DNA from: Gardnerella vaginalis ATCC 14018 = JCM 11026
GTDB taxonomy: Bacteria > Actinomycetota > Actinomycetes > Actinomycetales > Bifidobacteriaceae
Direction of reading: 5' to 3'
DNA: 64,000 nt
Assembly (NCBI RefSeq): GCF_001042655.1
Contig: NZ_AP012332.1
Span: 1,054,001 to 1,118,000 of the forward strand
The notes beneath the pieces were generated by a model. That model did no database searches. It had not been told where the DNA came from and saw only the letters and a program-made list of their open reading frames with translations. Shown one piece after another: positions 8,512 to 62,948 of this stretch; position 1 is the stretch's first letter; the number at the start of each line of letters is the position of its first letter. A program made the position numbers and the translations under genes.

Positions 8512-8591
8512 TATTTTTCTCCAAGAGCATTTTATTTATTTTACTAAAACCCAACAATCGCGCGGTTGCTTGCGATTTTTCCTTTGAGTCT

Positions 8592-57451: not shown

Positions 57452-57689
57452 TCTCACTACCTCTCACTTCCTTTATATCTATACTATTTCTACTATCTCT
57501 TCTCTAATAGCATTTTCGCAGCTAGCATCTTCATAAGCTATTTGCTTATTCACTCGCTACAAAGCATTGAAAGCTACACTATCATACTTATCATGATTAT
57601 TAACCCTTAACGTAATACTTAAACGCATTTATACGTAATTCTTGACAGAAATAATAAGCATAGAGTTAAAAAAAAAAAATCAAATTAAA

Positions 57690-57717
57690 ACACTGATTCC
57701 ATATGTATTATCAGTGT
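57690..57717 (-). terminator. Intrinsic terminator after the nucleoside phosphorylase gene
   Basis: ACACTGAT and ATCAGTGT, 12-base loop, followed on the minus strand by TTTTAATTTGA and a run of T (plus-strand A12 at 57668-57679). Confidence 0.8.
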
Positions 57718-57724
57718 AAACGTG

Positions 57725-58534
57725 TCAAATGCGCAACGTTGCTTCAATACAAAGCTCAAGAGCATACGCTTTAGAGTCTCCACCCCAATTGCGCTCATCG
57801 TAATTTTCAACATCGTGCAAAGTATCTGCAGTGTAAAGAATCTCACCCCAAACGATCCCACGCATTTGCGCACAAGCCGCTAAAGCAGAACACTCCATCT
57901 CCACAACCGCACATCCTTCCTGCTTACGACTAGCAACTTTCGTCTTAGTTTCACGGAAAAACCCATCCGTAGTCCACGTTTTAACTTCATGATAAGGCAA
58001 ATTGTGCGCTTGCAAAGTTTGTAAAATAGCACGTCTCGAGCGCTCTGAAACGTCAACATAACGACTTGGAGGCAAATAATGATAAGAAGTCCCCTCATCC
58101 CTTAAAGCTTTATACGGAACCAGGAAAACATTTTCCGCATAATCAACTAGCGATCCGCAAGAACCAGCACTAACAACTTCGCTAACACCGTAAGAAATCA
58201 GCCAGTCTAAGATCTGAACAGCGGCAGGAGCGCCAACTGGAGCCTGCACTAAGCAGATTTTTTGCGTTTCTTCTTCTACTTCACTGTTTGTATTTTCCCT
58301 TACTGTATCTCCTACTTTTTCTTCCAAAACATATATTGGATATACTTTAGTTGCAGATTCAAAATTTGCTACAATCGTAGCTTTCCTACTTAAAGCATAC
58401 TGATCAATTTCATCGCCTAAGAAAGCAAAAACCGCTTTAGATGGAAGCTGAACAGAAATATTATCGTGATTTGGCATTAAAACTGCACTTTTATCGGAAT
58501 CATACTCTAAAATCGGTAAATCGTATTCTGTCAT
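57725..58534 (-). CDS. Nucleoside phosphorylase (PNP/UDP family)
   Basis: A 269-residue phosphorylase related to uridine/purine nucleoside phosphorylases. The phosphate-binding region is in VQAPVGAPAAVQILDWLISY, the catalytic-area GSCGSL follows near residue 130, and a late VVEMECSALAA is the ribose-binding Met-Glu. It would cleave nucleosides with phosphate for base salvage. GAAGGAG precedes the chosen ATG; the upstream 14 codons are open but lack a ribosome site. Exact base specificity is uncertain. Confidence 0.87.
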   Translation of the reverse strand: MTEYDLPILEYDSDKSAVLMPNHDNISVQLPSKAVFAFLGDEIDQYALSRKATIVANFESATKVYPIYVLEEKVGDTVRENTNSEVEEETQKICLVQAPVGAPAAVQILDWLISYGVSEVVSAGSCGSLVDYAENVFLVPYKALRDEGTSYHYLPPSRYVDVSERSRRAILQTLQAHNLPYHEVKTWTTDGFFRETKTKVASRKQEGCAVVEMECSALAACAQMRGIVWGEILYTADTLHDVENYDERNWGGDSKAYALELCIEATLRI

Positions 58535-58623
58535 ATAATCAACTCCTTCATACAATAAACTAATTCTACAAGCCATTCAATCCTATATACAAGCACGCAC
58601 ATTATCGCACAAAAATCACAAAT

Positions 58624-58665
58624 CAGCCAAACACAACAAATTCTCGGGCGATTGGCTACTATCGC
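58624..58665. repeat. Intergenic palindromic element, copy 3 (imperfect)
   Basis: AGCCAA and TTGGCT form a shortened palindrome around CAAATTCTCGGGCGA. The segment from 58637 to 58665 matches 55514-55542 with one change. Confidence 0.75.
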
Positions 58666-58700
58666 CAAACAGAGACACTCACGCATGAGAAGGAGTACAT

Positions 58701-58740
58701 ATCAAAGTTTGACAAACACAAATCAAGTTTGACAAACACA
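58701..58740 (+). promoter_or_regulatory. Two tandem GTTTG-A-CAAAC dyads overlapping the cys promoter
   Basis: GTTTGACAAAC, a perfect inverted repeat about a central A, occurs at 58707-58717 and at 58727-58737, exactly 20 bp apart (two helical turns), within a repeated 19-20-bp unit. The second copy overlaps the -35 box. This is the expected geometry of a cooperative repressor operator. Confidence 0.7.
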
Positions 58741-58757
58741 GATCCATTCGCTATAGT
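58729..58757 (+). promoter_or_regulatory. Promoter of the cys leader-cysK-cysE operon
   Basis: TTGACA (58729-58734) and TATAGT (58752-58757), 17 bases apart, about 40 bases before the leader ATG. Confidence 0.85.
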
Positions 58758-58795
58758 CTTCACTTATCACCATTTCTACTAGTAAAGGAGTGCGC

Positions 58796-58882
58796 ATGTA
58801 TCATACAAATATGATGACAAATTGTTGTTGTAACGTATGCTGTTGCGCATTTCTTAATCGAAATGATGTTTGCAAGCACTAA
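58796..58882 (+). CDS. Cysteine-rich leader peptide upstream of cysK
   Basis: A 28-codon ORF. The peptide carries a CCC run at residues 10-12, a second CCC run at 15-17 and another Cys at 26, so it contains seven cysteines, six of them within eight residues. AAAGGAG lies seven to eight bases before the ATG. It is followed by a hairpin and an intrinsic terminator before cysK, the arrangement of an attenuator leader. Cysteine-rich short ORFs acting as cysteine-responsive attenuators have been described in mycobacteria. The first Met codons of the peptide are plausible because no other start fits. Confidence 0.85.
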   Translation: MYHTNMMTNCCCNVCCCAFLNRNDVCKH

Positions 58883-58898
58883 GTATGCATCATCTAGC

Positions 58899-58930
58899 CT
58901 GTGTTAAAAAGCATTTACGTTAAAACACAG
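58899..58930 (+). promoter_or_regulatory. Hairpin downstream of the leader peptide
   Basis: CTGTGTT pairs with AACACAG (seven bp) around an 18-base loop, between the leader stop and the terminator. It could be a pause or competing structure of the attenuator. Confidence 0.5.
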
Positions 58931-58943
58931 CAAATTACGATTC

Positions 58944-58970
58944 AAGAAACAGCGCGCTGTTTCTTTTTTT
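58944..58970 (+). terminator. Attenuator-like intrinsic terminator before cysK
   Basis: AAGAAACAG and CTGTTTCTT (nine bp) with a CGCG loop and a run of seven T. It lies about 200 bases before the cysK start and within the transcribed leader. The leader segment GCGCATTTCTT (58845-58855), directly after the Cys codons, is complementary to its 5' half. Confidence 0.85.
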
Positions 58971-59169
58971 ATGCCAAAAATCGAATATAAGACGTTGAAA
59001 AGATAACAATTTAATACGGATTAGATATTAAACAGATAAATGGCATCTTTAGAAACAACTAATAAAGCAATAGTCGCTTTATTAATAAAATCATTTTTTA
59101 AAAATTAAAAACAAATCAAACAAAACAAAAACAAACAAGTAAAACAACAAACAAGTAAGGGGAAATATT

Positions 59170-60102
59170 ATGTCTAATATTTACAAGTCCGTGCAAGAAC
59201 TCGTAGGCCACACTCCACTTATGGAGCTTACGCACATTGAAAAAGAGTATAATCTAGCAGCAAAAATCCTTGTAAAACTCGAATACTTCAACCCAGCAGG
59301 CTCTGTAAAAGACCGAATTGCAAAGCAGATGATTGAAGAAGCAGAAGCCGAAGGCACGCTTAAACCAGGCTCAGTAATTGTTGAGCCAACCTCTGGAAAT
59401 ACTGGCATTGGTCTTTCAATGATTGCTCAAACAAAAGGATACAAAAGCATTATTGTTATGCCAGAAAGCATGTCTATTGAACGCAGAAAACTTATGAAAG
59501 CATACGGCGCCGAACTCGTGCTCACCCCAGCTGCAGAAGGAATGAAAGGCGCAATTGCCAAAGCGAAGGAAATCGTTGAAAACACGCCAAACGCGTGGAC
59601 TCCAGGACAGTTTACCAATCAAGCAAATGTACACGCGCACTACAACACAACAGGTCCAGAAATTTGGCAAGACACTGACGGAAACGTGGATATGCTCATT
59701 GCTGGCGTTGGAACAGGCGGCACAATCACTGGTACTGGCACATACTTAAAAGAGCAAAATCCACATCTGGAAGTAATCGCAGTAGAACCAGCCGACTCCC
59801 CTGTGCTCGCAGGCGGCAAGCCAGGAGCGCACAAGATTCAAGGAATCGGCGCAGGATTCGTGCCAGATGTGCTCAACCAAAACATTTACAATCGCATTAT
59901 TCACGTAACAAATGAAGACGCAATCGAAAGCGGCAAGCTTATAAGCAAAAAAGAAGGCGTTCTCGTGGGTATTTCTTCTGGAGCTGCAATCTGGGCAGCA
60001 ATCCAAGAAGCAAAAAGAGAAGAAAACAGCGGTAAAACCATTGTTGCAATACTTCCCGATTCAGGAGATCGATACTTGTCTACAGCATTATTTGAAGACT
60101 AA
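59170..60102 (+). CDS. cysK: Cysteine synthase CysK (O-acetylserine sulfhydrylase)
   Basis: A 310-residue PLP enzyme that forms cysteine from O-acetylserine and sulfide. The PLP Lys is K47 in NPAGSVKDR, the substrate loop is TSGNTG, and the phosphate-binding GTGGTITGTG lies near residue 180. A C-terminal loop with SSGAAI is also conserved. AAGGGGAAATATT precedes the ATG. It lies between the Cys leader and cysE. It is not cystathionine beta-synthase, given the position beside cysE and the absence of a CBS domain. Confidence 0.95.
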   Translation: MSNIYKSVQELVGHTPLMELTHIEKEYNLAAKILVKLEYFNPAGSVKDRIAKQMIEEAEAEGTLKPGSVIVEPTSGNTGIGLSMIAQTKGYKSIIVMPESMSIERRKLMKAYGAELVLTPAAEGMKGAIAKAKEIVENTPNAWTPGQFTNQANVHAHYNTTGPEIWQDTDGNVDMLIAGVGTGGTITGTGTYLKEQNPHLEVIAVEPADSPVLAGGKPGAHKIQGIGAGFVPDVLNQNIYNRIIHVTNEDAIESGKLISKKEGVLVGISSGAAIWAAIQEAKREENSGKTIVAILPDSGDRYLSTALFED

Positions 60103-60241
60103 CTACATTTAGGAGCACTACTGTAAATACGCAAGTTTTGATTAAATAATATATGGATAATAAATGGATAATAAATAACATTATTAGATAATGATCAAAA
60201 CTATAAAATAAAGAAAATATCAAAAATAACGGGAGAAATGT

Positions 60242-61099
60242 ATGAATGATCGCCTTGATCTTATAAATCAACTAAACTCAATTAACGATTCAGACATAAG
60301 ACAAGCTACATTCATACCTAATTACCGAAATATTATTGCGCTCATACATGCGACTCAGGCTCTACTTTTGCCTGAGTTGCATGTGCGCAATGAAAGCAAC
60401 GAGGCTACACAACTCAACGCTAGTTTGAATACTAACGCTAGTTTAAATACCGTTACTTCAAACGCATTAGACACTATAGAACGCATTATATTCCACGAAC
60501 TTCAATGCTACACAAGCAACACAATTAAAATTCGAGAAACTTGCAATCAATTTATAAATACTCTTCCTACAATTAAAAAGTTACTTTTAACAGATATTCA
60601 AGCCATGTATGAAGGCGATCCTGCTTGCACAAGCAAAGTAGAAGTCACACTCGCATACCCTGGTTTTTATGCGATGCTTATTCACCGCACAGCTCACGCA
60701 CTATACGAACTTAACGTACCGCTAATTCCTAGACTTATGAGCGAATATGCACACAGAAAAACTGGAATCGACATTCATCCAGGAGCAAAAATTGGCGCAT
60801 ATTTCTGCATAGATCATGGAACCGGTATTGTAATTGGCGAAACAACTGTAATCGGCGAGCATGTTAAACTTTACCAAGGCGTAACGCTGGGTGCGAAAAG
60901 TTTTGCGCTAGATGATTGTGGAAATCCTGTAAAAGGCGGAAAGCGTCATCCGAATATTGGAAATAACGTAGTAATCTACGCAAACGCAACAATCTTAGGC
61001 GGAGAAACCACAATTGGAAGCGGAAGTATAATCGCAGCAAACGCGTGGATTAACCGCAGCATTCCTGCAAACACAACCTACCACTTCCCTAAAGCCTAA
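60242..61099 (+). CDS. cysE: Serine O-acetyltransferase CysE
   Basis: A 285-residue acetyltransferase making O-acetylserine from serine and acetyl-CoA. The C-terminal left-handed beta-helix contains GIDIHPGAKIGAYFCIDHGT (catalytic His region), followed by GIVIGETTVIG, and a KRHPNIGNNVVIYANATIL segment; the N-terminal helical domain is present, with an Asn/Thr-rich insertion about residues 55-75. GGGAGAAATGT precedes the ATG. It is 139 bases after cysK and probably shares its transcript. Feedback inhibition by cysteine is known for the family. Confidence 0.93.
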   Translation: MNDRLDLINQLNSINDSDIRQATFIPNYRNIIALIHATQALLLPELHVRNESNEATQLNASLNTNASLNTVTSNALDTIERIIFHELQCYTSNTIKIRETCNQFINTLPTIKKLLLTDIQAMYEGDPACTSKVEVTLAYPGFYAMLIHRTAHALYELNVPLIPRLMSEYAHRKTGIDIHPGAKIGAYFCIDHGTGIVIGETTVIGEHVKLYQGVTLGAKSFALDDCGNPVKGGKRHPNIGNNVVIYANATILGGETTIGSGSIIAANAWINRSIPANTTYHFPKA

Positions 61100-61106
61100 T
61101 ACGCTA

Positions 61107-61529
61107 TCATGCTCTGTCCTTTATAAAACCGCAGCACTCGATTTCCGATAACTCAATAAAACCAGCAGATTTATAAAAAGCAATAGTTTTTTCAGTACAA
61201 TCCGTGGTTAATTGAATTTGACGAACATTAGGGTAACAATCCACAATCGCATTTAACAAAGCAGAGCCTATCCCCTGACGTTGATACTCTGGCAAAACAA
61301 GAATATCTTGAATAAGAACAACCGTATATCCGTCACCAACAGCTCTAGCAATTCCAACCAGCTCATCATTTTTATACGCAGCTAAAACCTTGAGTGAATT
61401 ATTAAAGCCATTTTCTAAAGAAACTAAATCATCTGTATACGAAGACCAACCAACGGAATCATATAGTCTTAAAATATCTTTGCTATTATATTTTTTATAC
61501 TCTTTTATTTGCACGTCTGTTAAATTCAT
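61107..61529 (-). CDS. GNAT family N-acetyltransferase
   Basis: A 140-residue GNAT with the signature LPEYQRQGIGSALLNAIV (acetyl-CoA binding, Q-x-x-G-I-G as QRQGIG) and AFYKSAGFIELSE near the C-terminus. Substrate unknown. GAGGTG precedes the ATG. It is convergent with cysE, seven bases apart, and lies downstream of a repeat tract. Confidence 0.85.
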   Translation of the reverse strand: MNLTDVQIKEYKKYNSKDILRLYDSVGWSSYTDDLVSLENGFNNSLKVLAAYKNDELVGIARAVGDGYTVVLIQDILVLPEYQRQGIGSALLNAIVDCYPNVRQIQLTTDCTEKTIAFYKSAGFIELSEIECCGFIKDRA

Positions 61530-61635
61530 TTACAATAACACCTCGCAAAATATAGCAAAAGTACGCGATTCTAAAACGTAAAAATGTAAAAACATAAAAA
61601 CGTAAGAACGCGTACTTGTAAGAATACTTAATAAC

Positions 61636-61689
61636 CGATGCAACAACTACAACAACTACAACAGATGCAACAGATGCAACCGCTACAAC
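61636..61689. repeat. Six 9-bp tandem repeats just after sstT
   Basis: Units CGATGCAAC, AACTACAAC (twice), AGATGCAAC (twice) and CGCTACAAC follow one another with no gap. On the minus strand one frame reads mostly Cys, with TGT/TGC pairs and Ser or Ile between them (11 Cys in 20 codons, then a stop). No ribosome site is visible for that frame. Confidence 0.85.
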
Positions 61690-61691
61690 AG

Positions 61692-62948
61692 CTACTTGTT
61701 AAGTTGCACAGTCTCGTGATCCATGCCCATCTTAAATTTAAGACCTGCACGCTGCCACATACGATATTCACCAACTGCCGTAAAGAGAACATCTGTGGAA
61801 GAATTAAGTGCAGTTTCGCAAGAATCCTGAATCACGCCAATAATAAGACCAATTGCAACTACTTGCATAGCAATATCGTTTGAAATACCAAACGACGAAC
61901 ACGCAAGAGGTATAAGCAAAAGCGAGCCACCAGCTACACCAGATGCACCTGCAGCGCTAACAGCAGAGAGCGCAGACAAAATCACGGCTGTTGGAATATC
62001 AACATAAATCCCAAGAGTGTGAGCAGCACACAAAGCCATAATCGAAATCGTTATAGCAGCACCACTCATATTAATGGTGGATCCAAGTGGTATAGAAACA
62101 GAGTAATTGTCTTTGTTAAAGCCTAGTTTTTCGCACAAATTCATATTTACAGGAATATTTGCCGCAGAAGAACGCATAAAGAACGCTGTAACTCCCGAAT
62201 CGCGCAATGTTCGCAATACAAGAGGATACGGATTCTTGCCAGTAAGAACAAAAACCAAAATAGGATTTACAATCAAAGCAACAACAGCCATAGTGCACAC
62301 TAACAATGCAATAACGGAACCGTATTCACTAAAAATACGAAGACCATTGCTTGCCACTGTTGTATAAACAAGACCCATAATGCCAAAAGGCGCTGCGTTA
62401 ATAATCCAGTGAACAATTTTTCCAATAGCAGACGAAACGTTGTCAAAGAATGCTTTAGTGGAAGGCTCAGCCAAACGAAGCGCTACACCGAAAGCAATTG
62501 CCCAGAATAAAATACCAATAAAGTTTCCCTTAGCAAGAGCGTCTACAGGGTTTACCACAATATTTAACACAAGAGAATTAAGAACTTCACCGATTCCTTG
62601 AGGAGATGGTGAAGATGCTGCTTCAACATGCGCAAAAGTGAAGTCAACAGGGAAAATCATAGCTGCACATACAGCTATAAGGCTTGCAGTGAAAGTAGAA
62701 ATCGCATACAACACGATTACAAGCTTCATGTTTCCAACACTTTTTGCTTTTGCAAGCGCTCCAATCACAAGGCAAAATACCAAGATAGGCGCAACGGATT
62801 TAAGTGCGCTCACAAACAGCTTTCCAATAAGATCTAACACGTAAACGTGAGCTGGCACAAAAAGACCAAGTGCAGCGCCAAGAAAAAGACCAATGACAAT
62901 ACGCAGAATAAGGTCAATGTTATTCCACTTTTGAATAATCTTGTGCAT
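61692..62948 (-). CDS. sstT: Serine/threonine:Na+ symporter SstT
   Basis: A 418-residue transporter of the dicarboxylate/amino-acid:cation symporter family, most like SstT. Eight membrane helices and two re-entrant loops are expected; typical segments are VSALKSVAPILVFCLVIGAL, the serine-rich hairpin FMRSSAANIPVNMNLCEKLG and SIPLGSTINMSGAAITISIM. It would import serine, the precursor for cysteine synthesis, and lies near cysE/cysK. AGGAGACTCTC precedes the ATG. Nine-bp repeats follow the stop. Confidence 0.92.
   Translation of the reverse strand: MHKIIQKWNNIDLILRIVIGLFLGAALGLFVPAHVYVLDLIGKLFVSALKSVAPILVFCLVIGALAKAKSVGNMKLVIVLYAISTFTASLIAVCAAMIFPVDFTFAHVEAASSPSPQGIGEVLNSLVLNIVVNPVDALAKGNFIGILFWAIAFGVALRLAEPSTKAFFDNVSSAIGKIVHWIINAAPFGIMGLVYTTVASNGLRIFSEYGSVIALLVCTMAVVALIVNPILVFVLTGKNPYPLVLRTLRDSGVTAFFMRSSAANIPVNMNLCEKLGFNKDNYSVSIPLGSTINMSGAAITISIMALCAAHTLGIYVDIPTAVILSALSAVSAAGASGVAGGSLLLIPLACSSFGISNDIAMQVVAIGLIIGVIQDSCETALNSSTDVLFTAVGEYRMWQRAGLKFKMGMDHETVQLNK

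Follow-up and report, generated by a model that had tools for sequence, protein, structure and literature searches.

A candidate cysteine attenuator ahead of cysK and a cysE-type gene in Gardnerella vaginalis

Judged by its modelled folding, the leader that precedes cysK and a cysE-type gene in Gardnerella vaginalis ATCC 14018 = JCM 11026 very probably senses charged tRNA-Cys as a ribosome-mediated transcription attenuator of the classical type. What is established directly is its parts, how well they are conserved, and how they fold in computation. If this reading is true, we have a complete trp-type cysteine attenuator on biosynthetic genes in an actinobacterium, in contrast to the Cys leader peptides without a terminator that were predicted in the available passages of an actinobacterial survey (PMC1262725), and the leader offers a simple test of cysteine sensing in these bacteria. 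The window, that is the whole stretch of 64,000 nucleotides that was analyzed, comprises positions 1054001-1118000 of contig C1 (NZ_AP012332.1) of the source genome, G000, and all coordinates below are those of the window and its + strand. GTDB places Gardnerella vaginalis in Bifidobacterium, and it is in this sense that we speak of the genus. The source genome has 1,667,406 bases and 38-42% G+C; the genus members listed in our comparison range from 1.5 to 3.3 Mb.

The leader begins with a sigma70-type promoter at 58729-58757, composed of TTGACA (58729-58734), a 17-nt spacer, and TATAGT (58752-58757). The two hexamers agree with the consensus at 11 of 12 positions and, scored at the consensus level, rank first among the 15 promoter-like sites in 57500-61500; from them, a start of transcription near 58764 is assumed. 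The Shine-Dalgarno sequence AAAGGAG (58784-58790) leads into the leader peptide ORF MYHTNMMTNCCCNVCCCAFLNRNDVCKH (58796-58882), which has an ATG start, 28 codons, and seven Cys, six of which fall within the eight residues of codons 10-17. These six form a first triplet at codons 10-12 (58823-58831) and a second at codons 15-17 (58838-58846). As 38 nt, including the Shine-Dalgarno sequence, separate the -10 hexamer from the ATG, the ORF does not stand at the 5' end of the predicted transcript. Such Cys density is rare: 2 of the 1479 ORFs of at least 10 aa in the window have six Cys in eight residues, the leader ORF and an antisense Cys/Ser repeat at 61628-61792, and 40 dinucleotide shuffles of the window yielded one such ORF in total.

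Beyond the ORF lie a middle hairpin (about 58897-58931) and a predicted intrinsic terminator (58944-58970) with a 9-bp stem, a 4-nt loop, and T7; a perfect 22-nt palindrome spans 58944-58965 and the T7 58964-58970. Terminator-like sites in the region are no commoner than chance (three found, 4.2 expected) and the terminator call therefore rests on the perfect stem, the T run, the place, and the conservation. A translatable ORF, a cluster of end-product codons, and a terminator, the parts of a ribosome-mediated attenuator, thus all appear to be present in the sequence. In the window, Rfam covariance models at gathering score, T-box and riboswitches included, matched only two tRNAs.

Two side observations concern repeats. 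A CAG/CTG-rich repeat at 61638-61690, just past the stop of a minus-strand gene (61692-62948), creates the window's only other ORF with six Cys in eight residues. At 58705-58744, a 20-bp tandem copy with one mismatch (AAGTTTGACAAACACA twice) holds the -35 hexamer; it is full in G000, G105, and G091 and not in the other eight rows of the alignment described below.

The first gene downstream, cysK (cysteine synthase A, 59170-60102, + strand), matches TIGR01139 at 451.6 bits (cut-off 350.95) and starts 200 nt past the T run of the terminator. The second, at 60242-61099 on the same strand, is a cysE-type serine O-acetyltransferase that scores 165.2 bits with TIGR01172, below the cut-off of 210.65, and 152.0 with the EpsC-type serine O-acetyltransferase model NF041874, just over the cut-off of 150. 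Between terminator and cysK there is no promoter-like site of 9/12 on the + strand at the consensus level. Sequence and profile matches thus bear out the original prediction, which had named promoter, 28-codon Cys ORF, hairpin, T7 terminator, cysK, and cysE at these coordinates. On the other side of the promoter, a divergent gene (57725-58576) weakly resembles AMP nucleosidase and purine-nucleoside phosphorylases, with no score reaching any of the curated cut-offs shown.

Of the 112 genus genomes, 11 carry the leader, source genome counted, and in all 11 loci it is followed by cysK and then the cysE-type gene. The cysK of these genomes share 94.5-100% identity, and all six genomes with a cysK of at least 95% identity in the initial cysK search carry the leader. 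G141 was considered as a twelfth and rejected, its match being confined to an AT-rich stretch before cysK and accompanied by no cysK match. When 297 genomes sampled across the order were searched with an RNA model of the leader, R1, three matched, all from within the genus and none beyond it. The upstream stretches of ten family cysK-type loci with 54-68% identity (L009-L016, L018, L019; L017 left out) hold no such leader. The pattern CCCNxCCC occurs in at least 120 stretches over the genome contigs, a collection that may omit near kin of the window, and none among the matches listed encodes a CysK or CysE relative.

The original prediction had staked itself on conservation in relatives, and both leader ORF and terminator are kept in all 11 leader-bearing genomes. 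No row of the 11-row alignment departs from the others in the two promoter hexamers, the Shine-Dalgarno sequence, or the terminator stem, and the T run is 7 or 9. The ORF has no indel and substitutions in 9 of 87 columns; for comparison, 60 of the 217 columns between terminator and cysK are substituted and 68 gapped. Both Cys triplets are kept 11/11, and G186 alone replaces the seventh Cys (codon 26), by Phe. The 5' arm of the antiterminator proposed below lies within the longest block without any change (58841-58871, 31 columns), and all 38 bases of the 19 antiterminator pairs are invariant in 11/11. Of the 114 columns compared, 17 are substituted and none of these falls among the 38, giving P = 0.0005, or P = 0.003 when the terminator columns are dropped, in a statistic that treats columns as independent and uses a structure derived from the same sequences. 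Third codon positions are changed at 0/10 in codons 16-25 vs 4/18 elsewhere, which is not decisive alone. No pair of the structure is changed on both sides in the 11 genomes, so covariation lends it no support. The two helices of the middle hairpin have 98.9 and 97.0% of their cells paired. The G186 leader (L042) is of separate interest: along with Cys26 to Phe it has TGA in place of TAA as stop, and several joint changes near this stop swap one small hairpin for another (GCAC/GTGC).

These data bear on another explanation, in which the ORF would be a small gene, with a terminator of its own, whose product is a Cys-rich peptide (e.g., one that binds metals or thiols); cysK would have its own promoter, and their adjacency would be incidental. 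A conserved peptide with its own promoter, Shine-Dalgarno sequence, and terminator is what such a gene would offer. However, the antiterminator arms are free of substitutions whether coding or non-coding, the seventh Cys is not kept, no 9/12 promoter-like site precedes cysK on the + strand, and leader and cysK-cysE are found together at every one of the 11 loci. We consider a Cys-rich peptide gene quite improbable and continue with the attenuator.

The attenuator reading turns on three regions, all folded here with a single energy parameter set (Turner 2004). Region 1 (58785-58796) is the Shine-Dalgarno stretch; region 2 (58844-58864; TGCGC-A-TTTCTTAATCG-A-AAT), whose start the second Cys triplet overlaps, is by folding the 5' arm of an antiterminator; region 3 (58934-58956) is its 3' arm, which overlaps the 5' half of the terminator. 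It had been proposed that 58845-58855 can pair with that 5' half, and it does, as GCGC-A-TTTCTT with AAGAAA-CA-GCGC. In the free leader of the source genome, region 1 pairs with 58844-58855 (12 bp) and the terminator stands; this pairing is predicted to hide both the Shine-Dalgarno sequence and region 2. Over the 11 genomes, the probability of the 1:2 pairing, P(1:2), is 0.61-0.98 in the full leader, and in a chain ending at region 3 it is 0.00 in G069 and 0.40 in G183. The terminator of the ribosome-free leader has P of at least 0.94 in 11/11.

A different fold appears once the RNA starts ahead of a ribosome. With the ribosome at Cys10 or Cys12 in the source genome, region 2 pairs with region 3 over 19 bp and the terminator is gone; with the ribosome at Cys17 or the stop codon, the terminator forms. 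The middle hairpin is present in both folds of this genome, as a branch within the antiterminator. In a growing chain of the same leader, taken at equilibrium at each length, the antiterminator is present before the 3' arm of the terminator emerges. For RNA from Cys12 on, the antiterminator beats the forced terminator by 2.7-2.9 kcal/mol in 9/11 genomes and by 1.0 kcal/mol in G185, and is not the best fold in G183. The original prediction left it unsettled which state region 2 supports, and supposed that stalling on Cys codons would permit read-through; the folding sides with that supposition, as region 2 is the antiterminator arm that wins with a ribosome in the Cys block.

The ribosome was scanned along the ORF in two ways. 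In the first treatment, all RNA behind its front edge was removed, with the edge at +15. The antiterminator then exceeded P 0.5 at A-site codons 10 and 11 in 9/11 genomes each, codon 12 in 10/11, codon 13 in 11/11, and codon 9 in 1/11, and in 0/11 at codons 6-8 and 14-19; over all codons and all 11 genomes, such values were confined to codons 9-13, with late flips in G183 (codon 13) and G185 (codon 12). Setting the edge to +12 or +18 shifted the flip by one codon. This is the comparison with and without a ribosome that had been proposed at the outset, and in this treatment it came out in favor of the idea, with the antiterminator in 9 to 11 of the 11 at codons 10-13 and the terminator mostly elsewhere.

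In the second treatment, only the 31 nt under the ribosome were masked and pairing across it was allowed, with 16 positions tried. Here the terminator was kept at codons 10-12 (P of at least 0.91, 11/11), the antiterminator reached P 0.22-0.87 at codon 14 (over 0.5 in only 4/11) and 0.39-0.79 at codon 15 (over 0.5 in only 5/11), and a ribosome at the stop codon gave a terminator of 0.99-1.00 in 11/11. The terminator was as low as 0.08-0.32 at codons 16-26 in G185 and G103, with no gain of antiterminator, and 0.48 at codon 20 in the source genome. A switch at the Cys codons, as first supposed, therefore stands in that both treatments shift the modelled fold toward the antiterminator at codons 10-15; the exact codon and the completeness vary with how the RNA behind the ribosome is treated. 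Another ribosome waiting at the start codon, or the sheer size of the stalled one, would keep region 1 from pairing and so bring about the picture of the first treatment.

An unlikely refinement, drawn from the same models, is that the two Cys triplets act oppositely: a wait at codons 10-12 would give the antiterminator, and a wait at codons 15-17 would cover region 2 and restore the terminator. The leader would then be a threshold switch and not a graded sensor, its genes opening only when the very first Cys codons are unreadable. With the RNA behind the ribosome removed, the antiterminator prevails at codons 10, 11, and 12 in 9, 9, and 10 of 11 genomes vs 0/11 at each of codons 15, 16, and 17; in the same 11 genomes, the effect is absent when pairing across the ribosome is allowed.

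How far could chance account for these folds? The alternative pairing might be a by-product of a palindromic terminator and an AT-rich leader, with the terminator holding cysK at a steady low level. That the terminator is disturbed when the ribosome stalls is, by itself, weak evidence against this, because 25 to 73 of 1000 shuffled leaders show as much disturbance; the lack of covariation, and an antiterminator that exceeds one half in 5/11 genomes at best when pairing across the ribosome is allowed, point the same way. The joint behavior, however, with a terminator in the absence of a ribosome that is lost at Cys12 and back at Cys17, was reproduced by 1 of 1000 shuffles (stepwise counts 33, 4, and 1). 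The antiterminator arms are also without substitution even with the terminator columns excluded, and both treatments move toward the antiterminator at codons in or between the Cys triplets. Chance pairing strikes us as highly improbable. As a further control, seven terminator-like hairpins found by script in the window were each folded with their own upstream 108 nt: the leader terminator was the most disturbed (P 0.125), followed by a weak 7-bp stem at 8556 (P 0.193), and the remaining five kept P of 0.976-1.0.

The attenuator that we favor would work as follows. Transcription would begin near 58764, and a ribosome would initiate on the 28-codon leader. With ample Cys-tRNA, it would reach the stop codon, region 2 would be covered or left behind it, and with region 2 unavailable the terminator at 58944-58970 would halt transcription ahead of cysK. 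With scarce Cys-tRNA, the ribosome would halt in the Cys block and region 2 would remain free to pair with region 3 while the 3' half of the terminator is still untranscribed; with the antiterminator formed, RNA polymerase would continue into cysK-cysE. In a leader that is not translated, region 2 would pair with region 1 and the terminator would form. We infer from the parts and their folds the start of transcription, the stalling, the termination and read-through in the cell, and a transcript shared by cysK and the cysE-type gene.

Leader-peptide transcription attenuators are familiar from amino acid operons, with the trp, his, and ilv leaders as examples. The leader here resembles them in its short ORF rich in end-product codons, its terminator with an overlapping antiterminator, and its matching biosynthetic genes; it differs in that the amino acid is cysteine and that the Shine-Dalgarno stretch, rather than the control codons, serves as region 1, and a stalled ribosome would therefore itself leave region 1 uncovered. 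An attenuator model with the same logic is given for ilvB1 of Mycobacterium tuberculosis in the available part of PMC13236596. For cysteine, the accessible text of a survey of 26 bacterial genomes (PMC8632094) describes uORFC-8-2, a predicted terminator-bearing Cys attenuator before cysS in Rhodobacterales. Like our leader, it combines tandem Cys codons with an intrinsic terminator and is predicted to attenuate through the ribosome, but it belongs to Alphaproteobacteria, precedes the gene for cysteinyl-tRNA synthetase, and has two Cys codons, usually at 14-15, as far as that text goes, whereas the leader here has six within codons 10-17, precedes biosynthetic genes (cysK), and comes from Bifidobacteriaceae. 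We thus very probably have a new instance, with its own anatomy, of a kind of device already known, also for cysteine.

Closer by lineage are the Cys leader peptides that Seliverstov 2005 predicted in mycobacteria, in P. acnes, and before cbs of Bifidobacterium longum, the absence of terminators being stressed in the passages available (PMC1262725). They share with our leader a short ORF that carries consecutive Cys codons ahead of cysteine genes; in those passages, the Cys run lies near the stop codon and no terminator was found, whereas here it lies mid-ORF, is joined by terminator and antiterminator, and precedes cysK. In mycobacteria, short-ORF Cys codons are reported to control cysteine genes (Canestrari 2020, as described in other papers), and this precedent, which the original prediction had invoked, is indeed described. 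It is not the closest mechanism: the mycobacterial poly-Cys ORF is leaderless and its control is called translational in the parts of two papers that could be consulted, whereas the ORF here is led by a Shine-Dalgarno sequence and followed by an intrinsic terminator. Within the titles, abstract openings, and passages of the open-licence literature searched, no cysteine attenuator was reported in Gardnerella or Bifidobacterium except that of B. longum cbs (PMC1262725). PMC11979175 was set aside as a source on Gardnerella, the cysK row of a table in its available text adjoining a PREBIDRAFT locus, and the matches seen in PMC2965389 and PMC9094748 lay in reference lists only.

These precedents lend some weight to a cysteine attenuator that acts chiefly via translation, leader stability, or Rho, and not via the intrinsic terminator, given the translational action described for mycobacterial poly-Cys ORFs before cysteine genes and the terminator-less, possibly Rho-dependent poly-Cys leaders predicted in other Actinobacteria (PMC1262725, passages available). 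Here, however, the leader has both a terminator and an antiterminator that overlaps it, each invariant in 11/11, and cysK starts as far as 200 nt beyond the T run. We give such a terminator-independent device little credence next to transcription attenuation; an additional translational layer at cysK, whose ribosome-binding site lay outside the folded RNA, may exist.

Other genomes of the genus hold a second, conserved poly-Cys leader, which precedes cbs in the loci read. If both act as proposed, a single genus, in the GTDB sense, would have two Cys leaders with no evident shared sequence on the last steps of cysteine synthesis, cysK and cbs. We saw no sequence likeness between the two. A cbs leader peptide was reported for B. 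longum, with no mention of an RNA element in the available passages (PMC1262725). The short ORF ends in CCCR or CCCCR (CCRCCR in one) and, with a -10-like hexamer seen by eye a few bases 5' of its ATG, is apparently leaderless. Directly after it come a hairpin and then a tail close to GACGCATAACTTGAGATAGGA; the loci are L183-L212, around 1430-1560 in the orientation of the motif, together with L020-L030 and L032. A single pair of the hairpin shows changes in both partners (5 of 20 distinct rows), and the covariation score of the hairpin is no better than that of shuffles (264/500); the alignment has 33 rows, one of them a weak opposite-strand match. Rfam gave no match at the motif in 12 loci.

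An RNA model of the cbs leader, R2, matched 74 of 189 family genomes in one place each, 66 of them of the same genus and 8 of two other genera; none of the 74 matched rows comes from the source genome or the other ten with the cysK leader. The cbs query, a fragment from L029, had TIGR01137 as its best match at 477.6 bits, the cut-off of 510.25 being for the whole protein. Among the best 30 of the 74 R2 matches, the poly-Cys ORF is present in all 30, and all 30 are followed by a same-strand cbs-type gene.
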